Shown: positions 12,772 through 18,424 of the stretch, piece by piece
Layout of the letters: each line of letters opens with the position of its first letter
Position numbering within the stretch: the stretch's first letter is position 1
From: Thermodesulfobacteriota bacterium
GTDB lineage: Bacteria; Desulfobacterota; Desulfobacteria; Desulfobacterales; Desulfosudaceae
Reading direction: 5' to 3'
DNA length: 64,000 nt
Assembly (NCBI GenBank): GCA_040753795.1
Contig: JBFMDX010000003.1
Coordinates: forward strand, 1-64,000
Translations under genes and position numbers: made by a program
The notes under the pieces: generated by a model
Told to the model about the DNA's origin: nothing
Seen by the model: only the letters and a program-made list of their open reading frames with translations
The model's database searches: none

Positions 12772-13575
12772 ATGAATAAGTTTATCATCACACTGAACAA
12801 CGTGACCTGCGGTTACCACGGGAAAACCGTCCTGACGGACATCACCCTGGCAATCGCCGCCGGAGAAATGGTCGGCATCATCGGGCCCAACGGCGCCGGC
12901 AAAACCACCCTGCTCAAAACCCTGGCCGGGCAGTTGAAGCCCCGGCAGGGGGACATCACCGTCGCCTCCCGGCCTCTGTCCGAATATTCCGGTAAAGAAC
13001 TGGCCGCCGTCATGGCGGTGGTGGGGCAGACGGTCCCCCCTTCCCTGCTGACCGTCCGGGAACACGTGCTGCTGGGGCGCCTCCCCTTTTTCCGCCGATA
13101 CCAGTTGTTTGAAACCGCCAGGGACTTTGACATCGCCGACCGGTATATGGAACTGACCGGGATCTCCGACCTGGCCGGAGCCCCCATGAACGAAATCAGC
13201 GGCGGCGAACGGCAGCTGGCGGCCATCACCCGGGCCCTGGTCCAGGAACCGAAGATCCTCCTGCTGGACGAGCCCACCTCGCACCTGGATATCACCCACC
13301 AGCAGCGCATCATGGACCTGATCGCCGGCCTCAACCGCGACCTGGCGCTGACGGTGGTCATGGTCATGCATGACCTGAACCTGGCCGGAGAATACACCGG
13401 CCGGTTGATTCTCCTGAACGGCCGGGAGAAGGGCATTCACCTGGCCGGTCCGGCTGAAACGGTCCTGACCCCGGAAACCATCCGCGCGGTTTACCGGACC
13501 GAGGTGCTGGTGACCCGGAATCCCGTGTCCGGAAAACCCGGCATCTTTCTGTCGGCGCGGCAATCAGATATTTGA
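12772..13575 (+). CDS. btuD: Cobalamin ABC transporter ATP-binding protein
   Basis: A 267-residue ABC ATPase. The Walker A motif is GPNGAGKTT, the signature is ISGGERQL, and Walker B is ILLLDEPTSHLD, followed by an H-loop in VMVMHDLNLA. The family includes FepC, FhuC and BtuD. Gene order with btuF and btuC under a cobalamin riboswitch supports BtuD. The 157-nt gap before it may contain processing or a secondary promoter. No strong ribosome site is seen before the ATG. Confidence 0.92.
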   Translation: MNKFIITLNNVTCGYHGKTVLTDITLAIAAGEMVGIIGPNGAGKTTLLKTLAGQLKPRQGDITVASRPLSEYSGKELAAVMAVVGQTVPPSLLTVREHVLLGRLPFFRRYQLFETARDFDIADRYMELTGISDLAGAPMNEISGGERQLAAITRALVQEPKILLLDEPTSHLDITHQQRIMDLIAGLNRDLALTVVMVMHDLNLAGEYTGRLILLNGREKGIHLAGPAETVLTPETIRAVYRTEVLVTRNPVSGKPGIFLSARQSDI

Positions 13576-13676
13576 TTTTTTGCGGGGGATGCGATAAAAA
13601 TAATTGTAAAAATAGCGGATTAAAAACAAGGGGCGAGGCTCAACAGCCATGCAATCTATTGAGGAGTAAAAATACC

Positions 13677-13883
13677 ATGAACACCTTTACCGCCATTATC
13701 CATCAGGAGGATGACCGCTATGTGGCCGAGTGCCCGGAAGTTGGAACGGCCAGCCAGGGTACAACCATTGCCGAAGCTATCAGCAACTTGAAAGAGGCAA
13801 CCGAGTTATACCTGGAAGAATTTCCTTTAAAGTCGTTCTCCCGCCCCATCCTCACCACCTTCGAGGTCTCCGCTCATGCCTGA
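13677..13883 (+). CDS. hicB: HicB-type antitoxin
   Basis: A 68-residue protein with the HicB partial RNase-H-like fold: FTAIIHQEDDRYVAECPEVG, then GTTIAEAISNLKEATELYLEE. The start is chosen by GAGGAG 10 nt upstream of the ATG. It overlaps the HicA start by 8 nt. HicB normally neutralises the HicA RNase and autoregulates. Here the antitoxin is the upstream gene. The partner toxin carries a frameshift. Confidence 0.85.
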   Translation: MNTFTAIIHQEDDRYVAECPEVGTASQGTTIAEAISNLKEATELYLEEFPLKSFSRPILTTFEVSAHA

Positions 13884-14099
13884 GTTGCCGAAGATTTCCG
13901 GCGATGAAGCCATCAAGGTCTTTAAACGCCTGGGATTTTATGAAGCAAGTCAACGGGGAAGCCATGTCGTTTTGAGAAGAGAGAACAGCGGTTGTGTCAT
14001 TCCCCGGCACAAATCTCTTGCCATAGGCACCTTAAAAGCGCCATCAAACAGTCCGGCATAACCGATCAGGAGTTTCTGGACGGTTATAAGAAGCGGTAG
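13876..14099 (+). pseudogene. hicA: HicA-type toxin with a frameshift
   Basis: The frame opens as a typical HicA mRNA interferase (KISGDEAIKVFKRLGFYEA, then GSHVVLRRE with the catalytic His, and IPRHKSLAIGTLK). After the AAAA at 14034-14037 it reads CCA TCA AAC and stops early at 14059-14061. In another frame the sequence continues exactly as HicA should, AIKQSGITDQEFLDGYKKR, to a stop at 14097-14099. One missing A in the run explains it. It could be a true mutation, a sequencing error or a slippery site. The HicB gene is intact. Confidence 0.75.
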
Positions 14100-14482
14100 G
14101 CCTCCGTGCTCGGGCTTCATCCGCCTGCGGCGGATTTCACTCCCTGCGCGCGGAGCCCGGCTGATTTTTAAATCTATTCCCACCCGCCACCCTCAAAGGT
14201 AGCCGCCGCGCGTTTATTTGGTCATTCCCTGCCTGTCATGCCGCCTGCATCTTCTTACATAATCAAATCTTAATTATCGGCCCTTGCAGCGTTTTAAAAA
14301 GCATTAAGGAACCAAAGGCCGATAATTCTGATTATATAATCAGGCGCAAGCAGCCCGCCAGGCAGGGGACAACGGCCCCGGCAGCAGCGGCGGCGTCTGA
14401 TTTTACCATTCTCCCGGCCACCCTCCCCGGATAAGGTAATGGATCAATTTTATTCTGGATCACCCGGACAAGCCGATATTTG
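14100..14482. other. Intergenic region with an 11-bp inverted repeat
   Basis: There is no credible gene in this 383-nt stretch. AATTATCGGCC (14272-14282) and GGCCGATAATT (14317-14327) form a perfect inverted repeat with a 34-nt spacer. It might be a regulatory or attachment-like site at the edge of the accessory patch, but nothing else supports a role. Confidence 0.5.
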
Positions 14483-14899
14483 TCACAACTTTCTAATCAC
14501 TAAACTAAGGCCACAAATTATAGTACCACCAACAGCCACTACAATTGGACCGGCTTCATTCCAAACGGCTAATTCTTTACAAAAGTAATATAAAATTGCC
14601 AAAACACTAAGCCCATACGCAGTATACAAAAACCATACAGTCTTAACTCTATTCATTGCCTGTAAAACGCTTTGAAGGAGCGCTAATGCTGTTATAAAAA
14701 TAAGCAGTGCCATCAAAAAGGTTGATTCACTAGAAGCAAATGTGCCACGGATGTAATTGTACCCATAGATGGGCACATAAAACACGTGAGCCCAAGGGAC
14801 AATAATAGAGGATAACAACATTAAGCATACGGTGATAAGCAAATAATCATAAAAATTTTTTTTCATAATTTTAAGAAGCTCACTGGCACTTGTTTTCAT
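14483..14899 (-). CDS. Small polytopic membrane protein, possible immunity protein
   Basis: A 138-residue protein with four predicted membrane segments (about residues 17-35, 58-77, 85-103 and 115-133). The gene is visibly AT-richer than its neighbours, a sign of transfer. The ATG at 14899 has AAGGTG upstream, and the gene overlaps the end of the Rhs tip frame by 20 nt, the usual order of toxin then immunity. I do not recognise a family. A membrane immunity protein would fit a membrane-acting toxin, but this is inferred from position. Confidence 0.6.
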   Translation of the reverse strand: MKTSASELLKIMKKNFYDYLLITVCLMLLSSIIVPWAHVFYVPIYGYNYIRGTFASSESTFLMALLIFITALALLQSVLQAMNRVKTVWFLYTAYGLSVLAILYYFCKELAVWNEAGPIVVAVGGTIICGLSLVIRKL

Positions 14900-15461
14900 C
14901 AATCACCTTATTGACGCAGTCGATCCAGTCGTCAATGGCCAGCCCACCGCCAAAAATTGGATTTCCTGTGGGGCATTGTTTTTTAATCTTTTTCTGAATA
15001 TCATCACAACATTTACACTTACATAATTTATCTACACCCTCTTTGCATTTCTGAACGACCTTTTGGCAATATGACTCATTACTTATTGGGTTGTTGTTTC
15101 CATCGACAACAGTTATATTCTTTCTGCATAGTTCTTTAACGGTTGTTTCGCATCGATTATAGCCCTCGTCCCTTTTGGGGCAATCATTCTCATCTTCCAA
15201 ACCTGCGGGATCAATTAGTCTTATGGGATTATTTGACGCATATGCAAATAAATTAATTCCACCTTTTATTCCTATCGGATCCTTCCTCAAATATCTCCCG
15301 GTAGAAGGCTCATAATACCGCCACCAGTTGTAGTGCAGGCCTGTCTCCTCATCGTAGTATTGGCCCGGGAACCTGAGATTTTCCTCGATGATGAAATCCA
15401 GATACTGATGCCGGTTTTCTGCCGCCGGTTTTATTCCGCCTGCCGGGCGACCGCGTTTGAA
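14880..15461 (-). pseudogene. Orphan Rhs core end with Cys-rich C-terminal tip (5' truncated)
   Basis: The open frame runs from a stop at 15462-15464 and lacks a plausible start. It contains the end of the Rhs-associated core: FPGQYYDEETGLHYNWWRYY, then GRYLRKDPIG, and the closing DPAGL. After that comes a 105-residue variable tail with 12 Cys, including a CKCKCC cluster. In Rhs/YD-repeat toxins the tail beyond DPxGL is the toxic tip, and tips plus immunity genes are often left as orphan modules that can recombine back onto a full core. Here the core stub is about 60 residues. The tail matches nothing I know. A second Rhs fragment lies at 30 kb. Confidence 0.7.
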
Positions 15462-16273
15462 TTATACGTTATCCTGCTCCAATAGGCCGCTTGCCAGGTA
15501 TCCTCTAAACATTTAGCCCAGATATCCCAGGTATCTTTCGTCGCTACCGCCATGGCATCATTGACCGCGGCAGACTGGGTAGAACTCATTTTTGATTCCT
15601 GCGCCAGTTTCATCATACCGGCCACATCACCTTTGGCTTTTAACGCTTTCATTTGCGCCTGCAGCTCTTTTGCTTTGGCTTTATCATTATCAGTAAAGGC
15701 ATTGGACGCATCGGCCGCTTTTTTCCTGTCTTTTTCCGGATACGCTTCCTGTTCGGCTCTCTTATAAAGCAGCTTGTCCTCGCTTATTGTTCTGCCGCTC
15801 CCGTCATCTACTTTTCTGAAATACGCTTTGTCCAAAGCCATATACTTCTTTTCCAGCGCCTGGTATTCCTGCTCGGAATGTTTTCCCATAAGACTCTGTG
15901 ATTTCAAGGCGCCGAGCGCATCGACAATATTGTCACCGGCGGATATTTCCAGCATCTCCGCTTCCATGACGACCTGTTCCTTCTGGCCGAGCTTTTCATA
16001 ATAATTGATGCGCCATCCCTTTTCCTGACTTTCCTGAACAGGTTCAAGCCGATCACCTTTTTGCGCCTGCCCTTCAAAAAATTGTTTAACCGTATCTATC
16101 GGATCTTTGGTCAGAACAACATAGGGTTCGCTTTCATTCTGCCTGACGGCGTTTGGATACGGGGATATGGGATGGGCCTGAATGATACCATCACCTTCAT
16201 CCGCCTGTAATGACGACATCATTCCAAGCACCAAACCGGTTGCCACGATCAAAACCAGCCAGCCTTTTTTCAT
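15431..16273 (-). CDS. Exported protein of unknown function
   Basis: A 280-residue protein with a clean signal peptide (residues 1-24, cleavage near LQA-DE). An AGGAG site lies 7 nt before the ATG. The middle and C-terminal part is charged and helical (Lys/Glu/Gln rich, with DKAKAKELQAQMKALKAKGD suggesting a coiled coil). There is no recognisable enzyme motif. Its 3' end overlaps the orphan Rhs frame by 31 nt, so the Rhs fragment may be a later insertion downstream. It is probably periplasmic. Confidence 0.75.
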   Translation of the reverse strand: MKKGWLVLIVATGLVLGMMSSLQADEGDGIIQAHPISPYPNAVRQNESEPYVVLTKDPIDTVKQFFEGQAQKGDRLEPVQESQEKGWRINYYEKLGQKEQVVMEAEMLEISAGDNIVDALGALKSQSLMGKHSEQEYQALEKKYMALDKAYFRKVDDGSGRTISEDKLLYKRAEQEAYPEKDRKKAADASNAFTDNDKAKAKELQAQMKALKAKGDVAGMMKLAQESKMSSTQSAAVNDAMAVATKDTWDIWAKCLEDTWQAAYWSRITYNSNAVARQAE

Positions 16274-16345: not shown

Positions 16346-18307
16346 CTAATACTCGTATCTCACGCCGATAAAGAAGTTTCTGCCCGGCATGGGATATCCG
16401 GCGACATAGGCATAGTCCCGGTCAAAGATATTGCGGATCTCGCCCTTTACGGTCAGCCCGCCGCGTTTGGCAAAATCAAGGATCTTCTGATGAACGGTAA
16501 AATTGGCCACCGTGAACCCGCCGCAGTGGATGATATTCACCGGGTCCGACCAGTTTTCCCAGTCTTCAACCTTTTTGTCCCCGGTATAGGCAAAGTTCAG
16601 ATCAGTGGACAGTCCCTTTTTGTCCGAAAAAACCAGGCCCCAGGAGGCCGTCATGTCTTCGGTGTAAAGAAGGTCTTCATCGGTTTCGTCGTCCTCGTAT
16701 TTCGTCAGGTAAACGATGCTGCCATAAGGCCTGAGGTCATAAGCCCAGCCCAGAAAAGCGCCGGCGTCAAAGGAGATTTCGCTCTCAATTCCCTGGATGC
16801 TGGCCCCGCCGATATTCTTGTAAGACTGTTCAAAGGTCGGCAGGGTATAAACTTCAATCTTGTCTTTAAAATCCGTGACAAAACCGGTTACGGAAAAATC
16901 GGTGAAGGCATGAGTCAGATCAAACCCGGCCTCGTATGTTTCGCTGGTCTCGGGTTTGAGTTCCGGGTTCCCCAGGTAACTGATCCAGGCCACGTAATCG
17001 CCGGCCAGCTGCTCGGCGGTAGGCATCCGGAAGGCCTCGCCATAGCCGGCCCTGGCCTTGACATGGTCGTTGATGATATAGGCCGCGCCGAGATTGGAGG
17101 CGAGATTGTCGTCTTTTTCCCGGCCGCCGTCGCTTTTCATGTCCACTTCGTAGTCGTCGTACCGCAAACCGCCGGAGAGGATGAGCCGCTCGACCAGCCG
17201 GGTCTTGGCCAGGATAAAACAAGCGGGGTTGTCGTATTCGGATTTCTCCGGCGCGGTATTGGAATCAATATCATAATTGACCCAGTCAAACCCGCCGGTA
17301 ACAGTGGTGTTCTCCCAGTTGCCGCTGATCTGGCCCTGGCCGCCCCGGTGATCCGTATCTTTTGTGTAAAGGGAAGCCCAGGTCGGATCAACCCATTTAT
17401 ACTCGTCTTTGCCGGTAAAATACCGGGTGTTCCAGGCCAGAAAACCATCCGACGTCTGACCGTCATAAACAAAGTCGGCGGATTCCAGGCCGATATCGGA
17501 ATAGGCGTCCGGATCGCTCTGGCTCAGATATCCCGCGCTGCCCGCCTCATCGGCGTCAAAATAATGATAGATCAGGCGGAGGTGGTTCCGGGGCAGGAAT
17601 TCAACCCCCAGGTTCAAACTGGCGTTTTGCTTTTTGTCATAGCCGGTATTGTCATAATCGTCCCCATCGGCCGTAACATAATCGTCCATGGACTCACGGG
17701 TGGCGCTGCCGGAAAAATCGAACTTCTCCAGGCTCCCGGAGAAACCGGCCGTCCCCGTTTCATGGTCGAAACTTCCCAGCCCGCCCTCGGCAAAAAAACC
17801 CGGGGGACCTTCCCCCTTCTTGGTGATAACATTGACCACGCCGCCCATGGCCGCGGAACCGTATTGAACCGAGGCGGGCCCCCGGATGATCTCCACCCGC
17901 GCGACGTTGGCGGTCATGATTTTGGCCACGTCGCCGGTGCCGGCCCGCCGGCCGTCAATAAGGATCAGGACCTTGCCGGCCAGGTCGTTGCCGGTGGCGT
18001 CGGTCCGGAAACCGCGGATACCGATGGAGGTGGATATGCCCGGATACTGCTGGATATGGCCGATTCCCTTTTCAGCCAGCAGCTCCCCGAGGTCCGCGGC
18101 CGAAGACATCCGGATATCCTGTTCACTGATCACGACCACGCTCGCGGTGACTTCTTTCTTTTCCTCTTCCGCCCTGCTGGCGGTGACCACCACGTCTTCC
18201 ATGGTTGACAAGGCCGCCTCATCCGACCGCGCCTCTTCCGCCAGGCTCCATCCCGGAATCATCAGCGCCGCGCAAATTGCCAAACTCCCTAACCACTTTC
18301 TCATCAT
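16346..18307 (-). CDS. btuB: TonB-dependent outer-membrane receptor, probably for corrinoids
   Basis: A 653-residue protein from the ATG at 18307, preceded by AAGGAGG. The signal peptide is followed by a TonB box-like EDVVVTASR, a plug domain (GIRGFRTDATGNDL, VEIIRGPASVQYGSAAMGGVVNVITKK) and a 22-strand-type barrel ending in the aromatic terminus VRYEY. The receptor brings its ligand across the outer membrane using TonB energy. The fold does not tell the ligand, but a cobalamin riboswitch immediately upstream makes BtuB-like corrinoid uptake the best call. It would supply the BtuF proteins encoded at 8.7-11.6 kb. Confidence 0.9.
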   Translation of the reverse strand: MMRKWLGSLAICAALMIPGWSLAEEARSDEAALSTMEDVVVTASRAEEEKKEVTASVVVISEQDIRMSSAADLGELLAEKGIGHIQQYPGISTSIGIRGFRTDATGNDLAGKVLILIDGRRAGTGDVAKIMTANVARVEIIRGPASVQYGSAAMGGVVNVITKKGEGPPGFFAEGGLGSFDHETGTAGFSGSLEKFDFSGSATRESMDDYVTADGDDYDNTGYDKKQNASLNLGVEFLPRNHLRLIYHYFDADEAGSAGYLSQSDPDAYSDIGLESADFVYDGQTSDGFLAWNTRYFTGKDEYKWVDPTWASLYTKDTDHRGGQGQISGNWENTTVTGGFDWVNYDIDSNTAPEKSEYDNPACFILAKTRLVERLILSGGLRYDDYEVDMKSDGGREKDDNLASNLGAAYIINDHVKARAGYGEAFRMPTAEQLAGDYVAWISYLGNPELKPETSETYEAGFDLTHAFTDFSVTGFVTDFKDKIEVYTLPTFEQSYKNIGGASIQGIESEISFDAGAFLGWAYDLRPYGSIVYLTKYEDDETDEDLLYTEDMTASWGLVFSDKKGLSTDLNFAYTGDKKVEDWENWSDPVNIIHCGGFTVANFTVHQKILDFAKRGGLTVKGEIRNIFDRDYAYVAGYPMPGRNFFIGVRYEY

Positions 18308-18351
18308 TTTTTCCTCCTTCCCAAAGTTAACTGCCTCTTGGGCCCGGGAGC

Positions 18352-18392
18352 AAAAAAAAATCCCCGGACCGAACTCAATCGATCCGGGGATT
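18352..18392 (-). terminator. Terminator of the btuB cobalamin riboswitch
   Basis: On the minus strand AATCCCCGGATC and GGTCCGGGGATT pair around a 10-nt loop and are followed by a T-run (18352-18360 in complement). It lies between the aptamer and the receptor gene. Confidence 0.85.
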
Positions 18393-18424
18393 ACCCTTTT
18401 TATCCTCAAGATCCGTACCCGGCA

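Follow-up and report, generated by a model that had tools for sequence, protein, structure and literature searches.

Polymorphic toxin cassettes are already known, and thus the layout of the locus which we describe here is in itself ordinary. In Salmonella Typhimurium LT2 orphan rhs-CT/rhsI modules with their immunity genes are functional (PMC3967940). According to that account, a Salmonella orphan rhs-CT is located next to the main gene, has 522 bp at 95% identity in common with it and comes into use once recombination has taken place (PMC3967940). For bacterial teneurin-like proteins the report describes a C-terminal domain which must be exported to inhibit E. coli and which permeabilises the cells (PMC13018210). 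The locus lies in the window, by which we mean the whole stretch of DNA that was analysed, namely the initial 64 kb of contig C3 from a genome of 4.75 Mb (41 contigs, 99.76% complete). Like the Salmonella orphan rhs-CT/rhsI modules, as far as the account at hand portrays them (PMC3967940), it combines an rhs fragment, a DPxGL motif, a distinct C-terminal domain, the lack of a translation start and a linked small gene. Its value lies in a candidate toxin domain of unusual composition for which no relative was detected. The locus is built up as follows.

14456..14475, plus strand: one half of a REP-like palindrome that borders the module on its 3′ side (comparison with copies on C4 and C17)
14483..14899, minus strand: immunity candidate, a protein of 138 residues in which three hydrophobic segments are clear and a fourth is marginal (hydropathy, model)
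14883..15197, minus strand: Cys-rich tail of 105 residues, toxin candidate, with 12 Cys, no His and no Met; stop at 14880-14882
14904..14909, minus strand: AAGGTG, resembling a ribosome binding site, 4 nt before the ATG of the partner gene (by eye)
15198..15404, minus strand: Rhs core end that matches positions 12-76 of TIGR03696 and has its closing DPAGL at 15198-15212 (profile match)
15405..15461, minus strand: upstream part of the tip frame, before the core match; no Met, stop codon directly upstream
15431..16273, minus strand: upstream neighbour of 280 aa, outside the cassette; its 3′ end is the 5′ edge of the tip (homologue comparison)

The tip is a minus-strand frame of 193 residues, open from 15461 to 14880 and preceded directly by a stop codon. 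Its residues 25-88 match the profile TIGR03696 (Rhs_assc_core) with E = 4.6e-26 and 91.1 bits (cut-off 32.5), which confirms the short Rhs core end closing with DPAGL that had been read from the sequence; this portion represents about the last 65 residues of the core. After NNPIRLIDPAGL, the IDPAGL junction, follow exactly 105 residues with 12 cysteines, just as in the original prediction. An open tail frame is unlikely to arise by chance, as a fraction of only 0.0002 of 20000 mononucleotide shuffles is open and the other two sense frames carry 4 and 16 stops across the tail. The tip frame contains not a single methionine, and its only in-frame ATG, GTG or TTG codons are TTG at 15290, TTG at 15200 and GTG at 14906, all of them within core or tail. 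Promoter-like sites occur at chance level (5 found against 5.0 expected). Because there is no methionine in 193 residues, we regard the frame as a displaced, that is, orphan Rhs tip. This assignment is supported, and the layout of a displaced module proposed earlier finds its counterpart in the missing methionine, the stop upstream and the overlapping gene for a membrane protein.

This gene starts with the ATG at 14899 and overlaps the tip end, including its stop codon, by the predicted 20 nt. Its GC content is 36% compared to 56% in the TonB-receptor-like gene at 16346-18409, and hence the description as AT-rich is appropriate; the tail is also low in GC (40% against the same 56%). The four transmembrane segments which had been proposed are found in part. 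Three segments are clear, with a Kyte-Doolittle mean above 1.6 over 19 residues, and the fourth, around residues 85-106, is marginal with 1.5 only. A single-sequence AlphaFold2 model has four helices at low confidence (pLDDT 63.4). From its position and context the protein of 138 aa is a candidate immunity protein.

The tail has 18 basic and 19 acidic residues, and its cysteines are found at positions 8, 18, 26, 46, 53, 61, 63, 65, 66, 77, 96 and 106 of the 107-residue query. It is devoid of a membrane-spanning hydrophobic segment, the maximum mean hydropathy being 0.91 over 19 residues, which speaks against a membrane-spanning pore former or ionophore. HExxH proteases and His-dependent nucleases require histidine, and the absence of this residue speaks against both identities. 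The lack of histidine is not rare in itself because 12 of the 60 collected Rhs tails of 80-140 residues have none. A Tox-PLA2 identity is also disfavoured; the catalytic histidine motif of this family is CxxHxxxYxN (PMC3482391), and the tail has neither a histidine nor a PLA2 match at E ≤ 1. A single-sequence model of the tail has four helices (11-26, 42-61, 66-76, 90-103; mean pLDDT 71.8, pTM 0.51). Foldseek finds nothing for it at E ≤ 0.001 in PDB and BFVD, and in a further structure comparison the best hit is a designed repeat protein with Z = 6.5, which is in the range of a common arrangement. The models of tail and partner are of modest or low confidence, and we draw no conclusion on the fold from the tail model. 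A disulfide-stapled helical domain would fit since the number of cysteines is even and the cysteines are spread along the chain. The tail is a candidate toxin and probably rich in disulfides.

We searched for relatives of the tail and of its partner. In the HMM search of Pfam, NCBIfam, PADLOC and PHROGs only sub-cut-off matches or matches with E = 0.03 to 0.9 appear besides the Rhs core, in line with the earlier remark that the tail could not be matched to a known toxin family. A single match was obtained among the PDB sequences (E = 0.86) and none in plasmids and phages (tblastn, E ≤ 1). Pattern matches to the tail, three in the viral contigs and 43 in the genome_contigs collection, could not be confirmed in any case. 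With the whole tip as query, the genome_contigs collection yields 20 pattern matches, of which five at four distinct loci are confirmed. Three of these loci (L023, L024 and L025) align as far as tip residue 89-94, which is the core end. The fourth, L022, aligns up to tip residue 158; its tail reads metalloprotease-like with one cysteine, and we judged it unrelated. In whole genomes, the own genome included, the tail gives matches in 3 of 395 (E ≤ 0.01), 6 of 242 (E ≤ 0.1) and 2 of 350 (E ≤ 0.005), the three draws overlapping. At seven of the weak loci (L013, L014, L046-L050) there is no frame of at least 40 aa with an Rhs core at E ≤ 1e-3. Judged by eye, L014 resembles a metallo-hydrolase and L013 an anti-sigma factor. 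Compared with the other 125 Rhs tails which we collected, the best match of the tail has E = 0.24.

The partner gives matches in 7 of 395 (E ≤ 0.01) and 22 of 242 (E ≤ 0.1) whole genomes, the own genome again included. Its best non-self match (E = 7.6e-4) falls into a stretch with stops, and we presume these matches to be chance. The best match in the PDB has E = 0.31, and none was confirmed in viral contigs or plasmids. In the databases and genomes searched there is no second locus at which relatives of tail or partner would link the pair. Because no relatives were found, the pairing is seen once and the designations toxin and immunity derive from position and context. Among the titles and abstract openings of the literature searched, none describes a comparable Cys-rich Rhs tail.

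One could argue that the tail is no toxin but a disulfide-rich terminus with which a surface Rhs protein serves a structural or adhesive role, and that the membrane gene beside it is unrelated. This would agree with a tail which lacks histidine, a recognised catalytic motif and a toxin family match, and with the single locus joining both genes. However, a domain placed after DPxGL and followed by an overlapping small gene is how toxin and immunity genes are usually arranged (PMC3967940, PMC3482391), and other tails of the same genome match enzymes, namely a transglycosylase SLT domain (2.4e-14) and PLA2G12. In our view a structural role is improbable.

For comparison we assembled 126 distinct Rhs tails from the own genome, from the four genome_contigs loci, from 30 listed loci and from 60 further stretches, 59 of which are from other genomes. 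Stop-closed frames with a core match within 8 positions of the profile end were kept and duplicates dropped. The sample is uneven, as core ends occur in 61 of 116 genomes, the tails stem from the matches listed and a single genome (G422) supplies many. In this sample the median cysteine fraction is 0.0097 and the window tail ranks second with 0.114. The first rank is held by L025 from a deltaproteobacterial MAG (VGRB01000021.1, frame 1349-1684), whose tail of 52 residues contains 11 cysteines, and the third by the tail of the Rhs protein on contig C17 of our genome. The nine readable tails of the genome have a higher cysteine content than the 112 tails from other genomes in the order (Mann-Whitney p = 0.003), whereby the tenth core end, a contig-end fragment, is left out and related tails are not independent.

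The supplier genome deserves a remark of its own. G422 has at least 44 Rhs core ends, many in short frames on small contigs, and is an unusually large store of orphan tips. One of its tails (L117, G422:C803) has 12 cysteines in 118 residues together with a HEWAHSCGWDHG motif and appears metalloprotease-like by eye. A remote link between this tail with its HEWAH motif and the window tail was considered and given up, as no tool supported it.

We also asked what follows the tails. The next gene has at least 60 residues and starts within 60 nt of the stop for 78 of the 126 tails. When at least one hydrophobic segment is required, the neighbour qualifies for 15 of 16 tails with at least 4% cysteine against 38 of 62 of the remaining ones (p = 0.015). 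The corresponding numbers are 17/19 versus 36/59 at a threshold of 3% (p = 0.024) and 12/13 versus 41/65 at 5% (p = 0.051). The difference vanishes if two hydrophobic segments are required (p = 1.0, 0.57, 0.13). Leaving out the window pair, the test at 4% gives 14/15 versus 38/62 (p = 0.028), and leaving out the own genome 10/11 versus 38/59 (p = 0.15). Cys-rich tails with membrane neighbours thus favour an action outside the cytoplasm as a trend and not as proof. Membrane neighbours do not prove an envelope toxin because they are also present after 38 of 62 Cys-poor tails.

The latter number would also suit a toxin acting in the cytoplasm, with cysteines that bind metal or are reduced; its membrane partner would then block entry, and the CKCKCC cluster might be a metal site. 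Against such a toxin speak the even number of the cysteines and their spread over the tail, the signal-peptide-like starts of the two largest Rhs proteins of the genome and the result for VipB, the sheath protein of the type VI secretion system. VipB (PF05943) was the sole marker of this system which we searched; it gave no match in the genome at E ≤ 0.01, with E. coli as positive control. A cytoplasmic toxin is in our opinion very improbable, even more so than the structural end.

In total, the genome has 10 Rhs core ends including the window tip, several of them on frames of about 200 aa and some closely followed by small genes. The full-length Rhs genes reside on contigs other than C3. The largest Rhs protein is encoded by a frame of 4,203 residues on C17 with a hydrophobic start resembling a signal peptide (by inspection), followed by beta-helix, fn3, Ig-like and Rhs repeats. 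Its tail has 99 residues with 11 cysteines and matches PLA2G12 with 36.3 bits (cut-off 34). At +36 nt there is a gene for 86 residues with four hydrophobic segments. The Rhs frame on C13 comprises 4,099 residues and again has a signal-peptide-like start by inspection. Orphan tips on C13 and C15 carry different tails, one of which is the transglycosylase SLT domain mentioned above. The genome context suggests that the Cys-rich tails of Sec-exported Rhs proteins are adapted to oxidising surroundings, and the window tip might by analogy belong on such a protein and act outside the cytoplasm. The proposal of an envelope-acting toxin is therefore favoured on circumstantial grounds, these being the missing VipB match and the C17 protein with its signal-peptide-like start, its Cys-rich PLA2-like tail and its neighbour of 86 aa; the argument from the membrane neighbour, which was the original one, is by itself no proof.

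The region around the C13 gene (L009, G000:C13:98000-117900) shows a further arrangement. The 4099-aa Rhs frame is followed by a primase-like frame of 907 aa, then by two tandem frames resembling tyrosine recombinases (all by eye) and finally by two orphan Rhs tips with neighbours. Over 179 nt, the stretch upstream of the first tip and the one upstream of a C15 tip have 92% identity.

We then inspected the edges of the module. The tip starts at the 3′ end of the 280-aa gene at 15431-16273, for which matches turned up in 5 of the 241 other genomes searched within the order. In three cases the match spans residue 3-8 to residue 273-274 of 280, and the one homologue with its end read terminates at about the same place. 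Judged by this comparison, the upstream gene appears essentially intact. On the other side the REP-like palindrome is present in the window as a half only, whereas its copies on C4 and C17 run on into the second half and one copy on C3 is continued by a sequence closely similar to that half. On C13, about 0.8 kb from a second orphan-tip array, there is a 90% identical copy of a 68-nt segment whose end lies at the half palindrome.

Two observations concern the sequence beyond this edge. Nested inverted repeats at 14227-14367 form a palindromic insert of about 146 nt (14261-14406), to which only short partial matches are listed elsewhere in the genome; on C13 (104765-104850) both sides of the insert are contiguous. 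On the plus strand at 13572-14100 a HicB-like gene (sub-cut-off Pfam matches) is followed by a HicA-like frame which stops early at 14061. The HicA-like sequence resumes by eye in another frame and looks frameshifted.

How does the tip relate to the full-length genes? With the C17 Rhs gene it shares 112 nt at 84% with a longest exact run of 25 nt, with the C13 Rhs gene 116 nt at 76% with a longest run of 24 nt, and with the contig-end fragment on C22 the longest run is 27 nt. Recombination with a full-length Rhs gene is possible but less favoured by these lengths. Because the exact runs with the full-length genes are so short, decay has to be considered a serious rival. The locus would then be a remnant of an old rearrangement whose tip is no longer expressed or recombined, next to a gene that either is still useful as an orphan immunity gene or is also decaying. 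The missing methionine, the stop just upstream, the location of the full-length genes on other contigs and the module edge at a half palindrome would all be consistent with this. On the other hand both frames are intact, the overlap and the sequence resembling a ribosome binding site are kept, and short core-end frames are common in the order, many being below 400 aa among the matches listed. We consider decay rather unlikely, yet clearly more probable than the structural end. The absence of methionine together with the short identity to the full-length genes is the reason why the cassette may be either silent or decaying.

We prefer the silent cassette. With a probability of roughly 60%, the locus is a displaced Rhs C-terminal toxin/immunity cassette that is silent at present; if recombined, its exported tail would act outside the cytoplasm and the partner would protect kin. 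We suggest the following steps. In the current state the toxin half would be silent as the tip has neither start nor export signals, and the gene for the membrane protein has a putative ribosome site of its own, from which translation might start. The cassette might then recombine onto one of the giant Rhs proteins with signal-peptide-like starts. The 105-residue tail would thereupon be exported and released at DPAGL and, stabilised by disulfides, would attack a neighbouring cell at a site outside the cytoplasm. The target site might be the periplasm or the membrane surface. Protection of kin would fall to the multi-TM partner, which could guard a target at the inner membrane or trap the toxin there. 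Going further, the tail may be the first seen member of a family of His-free helical toxins stapled by disulfides between 12 cysteines, deployed on Sec-exported giant Rhs proteins which favour oxidised extracytoplasmic domains and neutralised by a four-TM protein of the inner membrane; this wider idea is tentative and we give it less credence than the silent cassette itself.

Finally, we compare the locus with the known systems. Unlike the Salmonella orphan, for which the available part of the account gives 522 bp at 95% in an adjacent gene, the window tip shares 112-116 nt at 76-84% with genes on other contigs. The tail sequence and the membrane partner also set it apart from that module as far as the source describes it, the window tail being a candidate toxin. 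Tse5, a pore-forming Rhs toxin, and the CDI ionophores have membrane-acting C-terminal domains in the portions of the reports at hand (PMC10684867, PMC11630599), whereas the window tail has no membrane-spanning helix and the genome no VipB match. The CDI ionophores are described there with small membrane immunity proteins built as two-helix hairpins (PMC11630599); the window partner has three to four segments. Compared to the PLA2-like tail on C17 of the same genome the window tail lacks histidine and a PLA2 match, and the partner gene, which overlaps the tip, codes for a longer protein (138 aa). Both tails are, however, Cys-rich, about 100 residues long and located after the core, and both have a small neighbour with several hydrophobic segments (Tox-PLA2, PMC3482391, as excerpted). 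The C-terminal domain of the teneurin-like proteins differs in being hydrophobic with a predicted transmembrane region, according to the sections available (PMC13018210). With these proteins, as portrayed there, the locus would share an exported YD/Rhs shell whose C-terminal domain is polymorphic and is accompanied by a linked gene for immunity (PMC13018210).
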